The notes under the pieces: generated by a model | What the model was told of the DNA's origin: nothing | The model's database searches: none | What the model saw: only the letters and a program-made list of their open reading frames with translations | Shown here: piece by piece, positions 27,896 through 31,450 of the stretch | Numbering within the stretch: the first letter of the stretch is position 1 | Layout of the letters: every line of letters starts with the position of its first letter | Assembly: GCA_003278125.1 (NCBI GenBank) | Contig: QCGX01000001.1 | Span: 62,001 to 126,000 of the forward strand | DNA from: Pelagibacteraceae bacterium AG-390-C22 | Lineage (GTDB): Bacteria > Pseudomonadota > Alphaproteobacteria > Pelagibacterales > Pelagibacteraceae | Length of the DNA stretch: 64,000 nt | Direction of reading: 5' to 3' | Translations under genes and position numbers: made by a program

Positions 27896-28108
27896 ATGAG
27901 TACACTAAAAGGTAAAGTAAAGTGGTTCAATGGTACTAAAGGTTATGGTTTCATTGAAAGAGAAGACAAAGAAAAAGACGTGTTCGTTCATTCTTCAGCA
28001 GTTAGAGAAGCTGGTTTAAAATACTTAAACGAAGGTGATGAGTTAACGTTTGAAGTGGAGAATGGAGAAAAAGGTCCTTCCGCAGTTAAATTGCAGAAAA
28101 CATCTTAA
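27896..28108 (+). CDS. cspA: Cold-shock protein
   Basis: [30 protein letters not shown]. Confidence 0.95.
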
Positions 28109-28134: not shown

Positions 28135-28168
28135 CGGGACATAAAGCTTTAATTAGTTTTTTGTCCCG
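28135..28168 (+). terminator. Inverted repeat downstream of cspA
   Basis: CGGGACA ... TGTCCCG, 20-nt loop; terminator role tentative. Confidence 0.35.
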
Positions 28169-28214
28169 ATAATTTTCCTTGAAAAAGACACAATTATTTC
28201 TTAAATACAGATCA

Positions 28215-28289
28215 ATGATTATTAAAAATCAAATTCCTGTTCTTACATCTCATTCTCACAGAATGCACGCTAGGCTATTGCTTAGCTAA
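28215..28289 (+). CDS. Putative His-containing leader peptide MIIKNQIPVLTSHSHRMHARLLLS
   Basis: 24-codon ATG..TAA ORF, three His codons in six, two adjacent stem-loops, upstream of tRNA-His/hisS/hisZ/hisG. Confidence 0.4.
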   Translation: MIIKNQIPVLTSHSHRMHARLLLS

Positions 28290-28345
28290 ATCATTACATA
28301 TTTTAAAATACAAATTTACTAATAATTAATATAAAAAGGAGTTAT

Positions 28346-28422
28346 GCAGCAGTAGCTCAGTTGGTTAGAGCACTAGTTTGTGGAACTAGGGGTCGGTGGT
28401 TCGAATCCACCCTGCTGTACCA
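28346..28422 (+). tRNA. tRNA-His(GTG), encoded CCA, no G-1
   Basis: Cloverleaf: GCAGCAG acceptor, anticodon loop TTGTGGA, GGTGG-TTCGAAT-CCACC, CTGCTGT-A-CCA. Confidence 0.96.
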
Positions 28423-28426
28423 AAAA

Positions 28427-29761
28427 ATGACGAAAGATAAGAAAAACAAACCTTCAAAAGAACTTCCTTTAGGGTTTGTTGATAGACAAGAAAAAGAATT
28501 ACTAGTACGTGATTTTATAATTTCAAACATTAAAGAAGTTATGATCAAGTATGGTTTTCAGTATCTCGAAACTCCAAGTTTTGAGTATACGGATAGTATT
28601 GGAAAATTTTTACCTGACAAAGATAGGCCTGATGAAGGTGTTTTTTCTTTTCAGGATGAAAAAAAATGGTTATCTCTGAGATATGATTTAACAGCACCAT
28701 TAGCACGTTATGTTGCAAAAAATTATTTAGAGATTCCTAAACCTTTCAAAAGATATCAACTTGGGACAGTGTGGAGAAATGAAAAACCTGGACCAGGAAG
28801 ATTTAGAGAATTTTTACAATTCGATGCTGATTTTGTGGGAACTCAGAGCTTACGAGCTGATGCAGAGCTATGTGTAATGATATCAGAAATTTTAGAAAAA
28901 TGTGGACTAAGCAAAGAAGAGTATGTAATTAAAATTTCATCTAGAAAAATTACGGAAGAATTATTCAAAAAAATTAATTTAGATGACAATGAACAAAAAC
29001 TTACAGCCCTTAGAGCACTAGACAAAATAGATAGATTAGGCTGGACTGGTGTTAAACAACTGCTTGGCGAAGGAAGAAAAGATAAATCAGGAGATTTTAC
29101 CAAGGGAGCAAATTTAAACACATCTAATATCGAAACAATAGAAATAGAACTAAAGAAAAAATCAGCAGAATCTAATGATCTTTTGGAAATTTTTAAAATA
29201 TTTAAAGATTATAATTTTAATAATTTTGAGTTCGATCCATCGATTATTAGAGGCCTGGAGTATTACACTGGTCCAATATTTGAAGTAAATTTAAAATTTG
29301 ATGTAAAAAATAATAAAGGACAAGTTATTCAGTTCGGCTCCATCGGAGGAGGTGGGAGATATGACAATTTAGTAAACAACTTTGGAAATTACGATGCTCC
29401 AGCTACTGGTATTTCAATTGGTTTAGATCGATTAGTTTATGCCCTAATGCAGAAAAAAGAATTTAAAATCAAACAATCAAAACCTATTGTTATTTGTGTT
29501 TTCGATAAAAACTCAATGAAAGAATATATTAAATTGCAAACTATCCTAAGAGGATCAGGTATTAGTGCTGAAATTTATCCTGGAGAAAGTAAATTAAAGA
29601 AACAAATGGAATATGCAAATAAGATAAAATCTCCAGCAGTCATACTCTATGGAGAAGATGAGATAAAATCAGGAAAACCAACTTTAAGAGATTTAATTTC
29701 TGGTAAAGAAAAATCAATATCAATTAAAGAATTAGTAAATGAAATCAAAAAAATTATCTGA
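28427..29761 (+). CDS. hisS: Histidyl-tRNA synthetase
   Basis: Class II motifs WRNEKPGPGRFREFLQFDADFVG, RGLEYYTGPIFEV; start corrected from 28361, which is inside the tRNA. Confidence 0.93.
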   Translation: MTKDKKNKPSKELPLGFVDRQEKELLVRDFIISNIKEVMIKYGFQYLETPSFEYTDSIGKFLPDKDRPDEGVFSFQDEKKWLSLRYDLTAPLARYVAKNYLEIPKPFKRYQLGTVWRNEKPGPGRFREFLQFDADFVGTQSLRADAELCVMISEILEKCGLSKEEYVIKISSRKITEELFKKINLDDNEQKLTALRALDKIDRLGWTGVKQLLGEGRKDKSGDFTKGANLNTSNIETIEIELKKKSAESNDLLEIFKIFKDYNFNNFEFDPSIIRGLEYYTGPIFEVNLKFDVKNNKGQVIQFGSIGGGGRYDNLVNNFGNYDAPATGISIGLDRLVYALMQKKEFKIKQSKPIVICVFDKNSMKEYIKLQTILRGSGISAEIYPGESKLKKQMEYANKIKSPAVILYGEDEIKSGKPTLRDLISGKEKSISIKELVNEIKKII

Positions 29762-30776
29762 GCAAATCATTAAAACTTTTAAAAGCAATGGCTTTGTTTT
29801 ATCCGAGCCTGATGTCTTATTAGACTCAGAGTATATTATACAAAGATCTGGTGAAAATTTTAGAAAATCAATGCTTACTTTTGAAAATGAAGATGGGAAA
29901 ATAATGTGTCTTAGACCAGATCTTACAGTAGCATCTTGCATCAAGTTCTTAGAGAAAAAATCTAAATCTAAAATTTATTATTCTGGCCAAGCTTATAGAA
30001 GGTCAGATATAAAAGGTTCTGATTTAATTAATGATCAACTAGGCATTGAAATCTTAGGTTCAAAAAACCAACTTCAGGATGATTTTAAAATAATTAAAAC
30101 TATTTTAAATTCTGCTGAAAAAATAAAAAGTAAAAAAATTCAGATTAAAGTTAGTGATATAGGATTATTTAAAAAATTAATAAATTCTTTAGATATGCCA
30201 GAGAGATGGAAGCTAAGACTAATTAGACATTTTTGGCGCCCAACATATTTTGAAGAGTTGCTGGACAGGCTAGACAAAAACTCAGATATAGACTCTGATA
30301 CTTTTGATACAGATAAAAAAAGATTTTATGAAATGAAAAAAATGGAACAAAACAAAATTATAGCTGGTCGTTCTATTTCAGAGATTTTAAAAAGATTTGA
30401 TAAAAAGATTAAAGATCCAAGATCATTTAGCGAAGGTAAACAAATTGCTAAAATTATAAGATCTTTTCTTAAAATTAATTGCAAATTAACATTATTAGAT
30501 GAAAAACTATTAAATTTTGTTAAAAAAAATAATTTAAAGAAAAATATCTTTAAAGAATTTAAATCAATAAAAAATTTAAAAAAATTAAATCAAGAAGTTT
30601 ATTTTATTACTAACTTTGGAAGGAATATTGAATATTATACTGGTCTTGTATTTGAGGTTTTTGCTGGAAAAAAAGAAATTGCAAGAGGTGGCCGATACGA
30701 TGATCTACTTAAAAGTCTGGGAGCAAAGAAAAATATTCCAGCTGTTGGAGCAGCAATTAATTTAAACAACATATGA
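29739..30776 (+). CDS. hisZ: ATP phosphoribosyltransferase regulatory subunit HisZ (HisRS paralog)
   Basis: HisRS-like core (RPDLTVASC, YSGQAYRRSD, NIEYYTGLVFEV) next to short hisG. Confidence 0.85.
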   Translation: MKSKKLSEQIIKTFKSNGFVLSEPDVLLDSEYIIQRSGENFRKSMLTFENEDGKIMCLRPDLTVASCIKFLEKKSKSKIYYSGQAYRRSDIKGSDLINDQLGIEILGSKNQLQDDFKIIKTILNSAEKIKSKKIQIKVSDIGLFKKLINSLDMPERWKLRLIRHFWRPTYFEELLDRLDKNSDIDSDTFDTDKKRFYEMKKMEQNKIIAGRSISEILKRFDKKIKDPRSFSEGKQIAKIIRSFLKINCKLTLLDEKLLNFVKKNNLKKNIFKEFKSIKNLKKLNQEVYFITNFGRNIEYYTGLVFEVFAGKKEIARGGRYDDLLKSLGAKKNIPAVGAAINLNNI

Positions 30777-31450
30777 AAGATCTAATTACTATAGGATTAC
30801 CAAGCAAAGGAAGATTAAAAGAAAAAGCTGTAGCTTTTTTTAACAACAAAGGTTTAAAAGTTTTACAAGGCAACAAAGAAAGAAACTATTTTGCAAAGAT
30901 TGAGAATAAAACAAACCTAAAGATAATCTACTTACATGCAAAAGAAATTATTCAAAGATTAGGAGATGGAACTTTGGATATAGGAATATCAGGCTTAGAT
31001 CTATTAAACGAGTCTGAAAAAAATTTACAAGACAAAATAAGAATTAAAAAATATCTTGATTTTGGCAACGCCAATTTGGTTGTGGCTGTTCCAGAAGATT
31101 GGATAGATGTACAAACCGTTGCTGACTTGGAAGAAGTAGCTTTTGATATTAGATCAAAAAGAAACACAAGATTGAGAGTAGCAACAAAGTATCCAAATTT
31201 AACGAACAATTTTTTAATTTCTAAGGGTGTTACTCAATATAAGTTAATACCAAGCCTTGGTGCTACTGAAACCTATCCATTTATAGGTTCATCTGAAATT
31301 ATTACGGATATTACTTCTACGGGCAAAACTTTGGAGGATAATAATTTAAGAGTTTTAAAAGATGGATTAATTTTACAATCAACTGCTTGTTTATTTATTT
31401 CAAAAAAAAAGGCTGCAAATTTGCAGCCTTTTTTAAATTCTTTGGTTTGA
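30773..31450 (+). CDS. hisG: ATP phosphoribosyltransferase, short form
   Basis: GLPSKGRLKEKAV; LGDGTLDIGISGLDLL; 225 aa. Confidence 0.93.
   Translation: MKDLITIGLPSKGRLKEKAVAFFNNKGLKVLQGNKERNYFAKIENKTNLKIIYLHAKEIIQRLGDGTLDIGISGLDLLNESEKNLQDKIRIKKYLDFGNANLVVAVPEDWIDVQTVADLEEVAFDIRSKRNTRLRVATKYPNLTNNFLISKGVTQYKLIPSLGATETYPFIGSSEIITDITSTGKTLEDNNLRVLKDGLILQSTACLFISKKKAANLQPFLNSLV
31405..31434. terminator. Perfect palindromic bidirectional terminator inside hisG 3' coding end
   Basis: AAAAAAGGCTGCAAATTTGCAGCCTTTTTT. Confidence 0.8.

Follow-up and report, generated by a model that had tools for sequence, protein, structure and literature searches.

Closest described systems

In Escherichia coli, the pheST leader (pheM) places an aminoacyl-tRNA synthetase under the control of a leader peptide; unlike the SAR11 element described here, it involves Phe, an intrinsic terminator and a controlled transcript without a tRNA gene. 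The enteric his operon leader (Rfam His_leader) likewise sets a short, His-codon-rich ORF and, after it, one or more RNA hairpins in front of histidine genes. In bacilli, a His leader peptide has been predicted before hisS* and hisZ (Naville and Gautheret 2010, PMC2965389), and candidate His attenuators are available from other Firmicutes (PMC9413887). Among alphaproteobacterial amino-acid leader ORFs, that of trpL in S. meliloti begins with an ATG coinciding with the RNA 5′ end (PMC7298713).

We analysed a 64,000-nucleotide stretch of the genome of Pelagibacteraceae bacterium AG-390-C22 (hereafter the window), and sequence comparison indicates that the element at 28215–28289, together with its hairpin, is a real His leader of a probably leaderless, single-hairpin kind. 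Compared with the enteric his leader, the SAR11 element appears leaderless, has one hairpin and a tRNA as first gene, and yielded no U-tract terminator or antiterminator; its His codons are scattered in SAR11 family 1, as opposed to seven consecutive ones in the enteric leader. The bacilli leader, compared here by description only, resembles it in preceding a histidyl-tRNA synthetase paralogue and hisZ, but belongs to Firmicutes, was detected via a U-tract terminator and is without a tRNA gene (PMC2965389). The trpL 5′ end lies at the ATG, and promoter spacing and the lack of an SD would suit a similar start in SAR11, but trpL differs in its Trp codons, in having a described terminator and antiterminator and in releasing a trans-acting RNA and peptide (PMC7298713). 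Searches of Rfam (His_leader, T-box or any other family) returned nothing relevant for the leader at gathering thresholds or at E-values up to 5, and a literature search of incomplete coverage found no report of a His leader in SAR11. An earlier survey of SAR11 RNAs listed intergenic regions after removal of those bearing tRNAs (PMC2704228), and the leader may have been overlooked for that reason.

Layout of the locus

The features of the locus are given in Table 1. The initial annotation had remarked on the large gap between cspA and the tRNA gene; the leader ORF does lie there, but the gap also holds the cspA-end hairpin and promoter P1. This hairpin is probably the cspA terminator, separating cspA from the leader unit. 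The downstream order tRNA-His-hisS-hisZ-hisG proposed in that annotation was recovered, with hisS and hisG above their NCBIfam cut-offs and hisZ as the best match for its gene, although below the curated cut-off. A gap of 5 nt separates the CCA from the hisS start, so tRNA processing would leave the hisS mRNA nearly without a 5′ leader. Within 28346–28429, the tRNA-His apparently lacks G-1 and carries A73 (GCAGCAG...CTGCTGTACCA), features described for most SAR11 (PMC3937112).

Table 1 Features of the leader unit and neighbouring genes (window coordinates).
Feature	Position	Strand	Remarks
cspA-type gene	27896–28108		upstream of leader unit
Hairpin at cspA end (CGGGACA...TGTCCCG)	28135–28168	+	read from sequence; kept in genus alignment
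Promoter P1, TTGAAA-17-TAAATA	28179–28207	+	TTG to ORF ATG, 36 nt
Leader ORF MIIKNQIPVLTSHSHRMHARLLLS (24 codons, then stop)	28215–28289	+	ATG, frame and His codons conserved
His codons CAT 28251, CAC 28257, CAC 28266	28251–28268	+	putative regulatory
Hairpin 1 (CATTCT-CAC-AGAATG)	28251–28265	+	optional
Hairpin 2 (GCTAGGC-TATT-GCTTAGC)	28269–28286	+	immediately 3′ of last His codon
TATAAA box	28330–28335	+	candidate -10 of second promoter P2 beside tRNA; without clear -35
tRNA-His (GTG)	28346–28422	+	first gene of unit; ARAGORN, Rfam tRNA
hisS, histidyl-tRNA synthetase	28427–29761	+	TIGR00442, 374 bits (cut-off 286.75); start 5 nt past tRNA
hisZ, regulatory subunit of ATP phosphoribosyltransferase	29739–30776	+	NF008953, 283 bits (under curated cut-off 384)
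hisG, ATP phosphoribosyltransferase, first enzyme of His synthesis	30773–31450	+	TIGR00070, 180.8 bits (cut-off 75.75)

Conservation of the leader ORF and its His codons

The ORF and the three His codons were present where the initial annotation had placed them. The named relatives retrieved by HisS belong to the Pelagibacteraceae (SAR11), and a genus-level alignment of 142 loci provided 116 distinct segments from ATG to tRNA. The ATG occupies the aligned column in 115 of these, the exception (L002) being a different tRNA locus of the window's own genome, and the His codons at 28251, 28257 and 28266 are kept in 137, 133 and 138 of 139 genus-level loci, respectively. In the 107 distinct loci in which a strict pattern recognised the His core, the distance from ATG to core is 33, 36 or 39 nt, a multiple of three in every case, and the variable N-terminal part between them contains no in-frame stop (0/107), while the other two frames carry stops in 99 and 67 loci. 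Single-base codon changes in the core are synonymous in 71 cases and non-synonymous in 33, with ~21% synonymous expected; these coding counts are drawn from related sequences and cannot be treated as independent, although relatedness leaves the contrast between frames unexplained. The C-terminal HARLLLS of the peptide is well conserved within the genus. Translation of the leader ORF is thus supported by its pattern of conservation, and the comparative coding signal and His codons together provide the cognate-codon leader ORF that is expected of a ribosome-mediated attenuator.

Across the family, we took from 166 distinct upstream regions the longest ATG ORF with a stop 30–110 nt before the tRNA, irrespective of its content. 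Such an ORF was found in all 166, with a mean of 3.13 His codons and at least three in 151, compared with a mean of 0.23 in dinucleotide shuffles, in which at least three His codons occurred in 1.1 of 166 regions on average and in 3 at most; the His-rich ORF is therefore not due to chance. The arrangement of His residues varies by genus (HSHRMHARLLLS, NAKHHFAHARLLLS, THRYHPHAERALS, NHTHHHTHAKHGLGN, THRHHFHAGC, AKHRHINHAG, STHRLCFHSL), and apart from His the peptide is almost wholly changed between genera. A second SAR11 family (family 2) has His leaders in 20 of 20 loci, without a tRNA-His between leader and hisS; these peptides have only 11 residues (MIVFTHHHIHI, MFKFKHHHYHI, MLIIKHHHSHI, MINKLIHHYHI and similar), and we count them as an independent form that speaks for a His leader. 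The initial annotation would have given up the leader had His codons and stems proved unconserved in relatives; instead, conservation of the ORF, its His codons and the second stem extends from the genus through the family to family 2. A limited test of 28 loci from other alphaproteobacteria with a simple ORF filter revealed no convincing His-rich leader, and no other leaders were seen before trpE, ilvB and pheS in the window's own genome.

Within genus g4, loci L153–L156 and L185–L191 differ from L168–L174 and L216–L231 in hisS type and in tRNA-His sequence. The g4 hisS types are ~73–75%, 54% and 45% identical to the window hisS and all stand behind the same kind of leader, and pairs of tRNA-His and hisS may have been swapped while the leader stayed in place. 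In four loci (L170, L172, L228 and L229), ARAGORN detected no tRNA-His in the space separating leader and hisS, where a tRNA-like sequence containing TTTGTGG possibly represents an aberrant tRNA-His.

Promoters and the probable 5′ end of the transcript

A TTGNW motif lies 33–39 nt before the ATG in 155 of 166 distinct loci (at 35–36 nt in 129 of them), compared with 1–13 of 166 in control windows of the same width, and in family 2 TTGA occurs 35–36 nt upstream of the ATG in all 20 loci. A -35 element at ~36 nt from the ATG places the transcript 5′ end at or beside the ATG, so that the ORF is most likely leaderless. SD-like 4-mers precede the leader ATG in just 4 of 166 loci, bearing out the earlier remark that there is no strong SD, which a leaderless start, itself probable from promoter spacing, would account for. 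Upstream of ilvB (L342), we observed TTGACG-17-TAGATT with the ilvB ATG a few nt further on, and ilvB in this genome likewise looks leaderless.

A TATAAN/GATAAN box starts 12–20 nt before the tRNA in 164 of 166 distinct loci, in support of the earlier caveat that the tRNA may have a promoter of its own. P2 beside the tRNA would probably give a basal supply.

Hairpins beside the His codons

Both stems described in the initial annotation are present in the window, but only the second is general. Hairpin 1 differs in its arms among the genera that have it (CATTCT/AGAATG, CACTCT/AGAGTG and TGCAAAA/TTTTGCA), and other genera are without it. We therefore rejected it as the key element, given its absence from many relatives and the synonymous TCT-to-TCG/TCA changes that break its closing pair.

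Hairpin 2 was found in 166 of 166 loci when searched with a list of arm types, and its arms change consistently (GCTARGC/GCTTRGC, GCTGGC/GCTAGC, ATAGCC/GGCTAT, GCAAGC/GCTTGC, ATGGCT/GGCCAT and TGGCT/AGCCA). A search open to any stem (5 pairs or more) next to the last His codon succeeded in 159 of 166 loci, with a further His codon inside the loop in 6 of the 7 misses, and strong stems occupy the hairpin 2 site in 157 of 166 loci, compared with 0–7 of 166 at control offsets. A CAY codon stands directly before the 5′ arm in 157 of 166 loci; in L113 the stem is mismatched and the adjoining His codon is lost. The mean predicted energy is about -9 kcal/mol (162 loci), and the window's hairpin 2 is single copy in its own genome. 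Changes within the window's genus are mostly G-U/A-U swaps, with strong covariation only between genera. In family 2, an unrelated hairpin of 9–11 pairs begins immediately past the stop codon. Loci of this family (L192–L211) also have a conserved AACNACCCC stretch past the leader hairpin and then T-rich sequence that is not joined to the hairpin; the AACNACCCC stretch is possibly a Rho site.

No terminator-like site was detected on the + strand, the tail of hairpin 2 having mostly 3–4 T in 8 nt, in line with the earlier caveat that a clear U-tract is missing. A pairing of hairpin 2 with the 5′ region of tRNA-His (GCUAUUGCU with AGCAGUAGC), noticed by eye in the window, was discarded, because loci with a different loop or a different type of tRNA-His do not retain it.

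Folding and proposed mechanism

The rest of the leader was folded in 15 representatives of both families with an assumed ribosome footprint (13 nt, counted from the A-site codon). In both families, the leader hairpin folds with the ribosome at the first His codon and disappears when the ribosome is at the stop codon; a ribosome at the last His codon abolishes the hairpin in family 1 and leaves a shorter stem or a different structure in family 2. Masking these footprints toggled hairpin 2 only, and no conserved competing antiterminator was found at any of the three ribosome positions. The leader thus seems to work like a His leader and to have the sensor of an attenuator, but a strict reading of the attenuator proposed in the initial annotation is not supported, with neither a U-tract terminator nor an antiterminator pairing found.

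The explanation we consider best, with a probability of roughly 0.75, is that the histidine leader acts in cis through a single hairpin that switches. Transcription from P1 would begin on or beside the ATG, and a ribosome would translate the leaderless ORF, as codon-level conservation suggests; its speed over the CAY codons would report the level of charged tRNA-His. Ribosome position would then decide the state of hairpin 2: a wait at the first His codon would leave it folded, and a ribosome at the stop codon (both families) or, in family 1, at the last His codon would mask it. Hairpin 2 would in turn set P1 read-through into tRNA-His-hisS-hisZ-hisG. Either sign is possible: stalling of the ribosome on the last His codon could mask a transcription-stopping hairpin, or a stall at early His codons could let an activating hairpin form. 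A tRNA is cut out of its transcript during processing and, because the tRNA lies between leader and hisS, excision would separate the leader from the hisS mRNA, making transcription the likely level of control. The probable P2 would bypass the leader, and we count this against the best explanation. With no U-tract and no conserved antiterminator, no known device accounts for how the hairpin would act on transcription. We tentatively propose, at somewhat less than even odds, a minimal attenuator of streamlined genomes, comprising a leaderless His ORF and one hairpin without a terminator/antiterminator pair, in which ribosome position alone would fold or mask the hairpin and so tie a tRNA gene's transcription, along with that of the synthetase and the pathway entry enzyme, to the charging state of its own tRNA.

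Alternative explanations

Several of these observations would also suit a textbook his-type attenuator, in which hairpin 2 is an intrinsic terminator, a stalled ribosome blocks it via an antiterminator or by direct masking, and His shortage leads to read-through: the last His codon abuts hairpin 2 in 157 of 166 loci, 138 of 139 genus-level loci retain the third His codon, and the 5′ arm would lie under a ribosome at the last one. We nevertheless find this doubtful, given a tail with mostly 3–4 T in 8 nt, the lack of a conserved antiterminator and a hairpin that is free to form when stalls occur at early His codons or at most family 2 His codons. The missing intrinsic terminator speaks for a version in which Rho acts on the unpaired, G-poor stretch joining hairpin 2 to the tRNA, with the hairpin or the ribosome shielding it; this stretch is almost without G in the window, and the conserved AACNACCCC stretch follows the family 2 hairpin, but the family 1 stretch is C-poor and a promoter explains it as well, and we regard the involvement of Rho as unlikely.

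The leader peptide or a short leader RNA could instead act in trans, as peTrpL/rnTrpL do in S. meliloti, with control of the downstream genes being secondary. A leaderless ORF as in trpL (PMC7298713) and the well-kept C-terminal HARLLLS in the genus agree with this, but a peptide that is almost wholly changed between genera except for His, and that has 11 residues only in family 2, renders it improbable. Least credible is a non-coding origin, in which the conserved blocks are only DNA sites (a palindromic operator) and tRNA promoter elements: the hairpin arms are indeed palindromic and a conserved box lies near the tRNA, but frame-keeping indels, the lack of in-frame stops, His codons kept despite sequence change and the second family all weigh against it, and the coding signature of the genus-level loci already contradicts it.

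Implications for SAR11

SAR11 rank among the most abundant marine bacteria, and the general view is that their regulation is sparse. The cis-acting histidine leader favoured here probably lets the cell sense histidine shortage through ribosome movement. Conservation of such an amino-acid-specific leader in two families of the order would mean that SAR11 sense their histidine supply and that the charging of a tRNA can feed back on its own gene.
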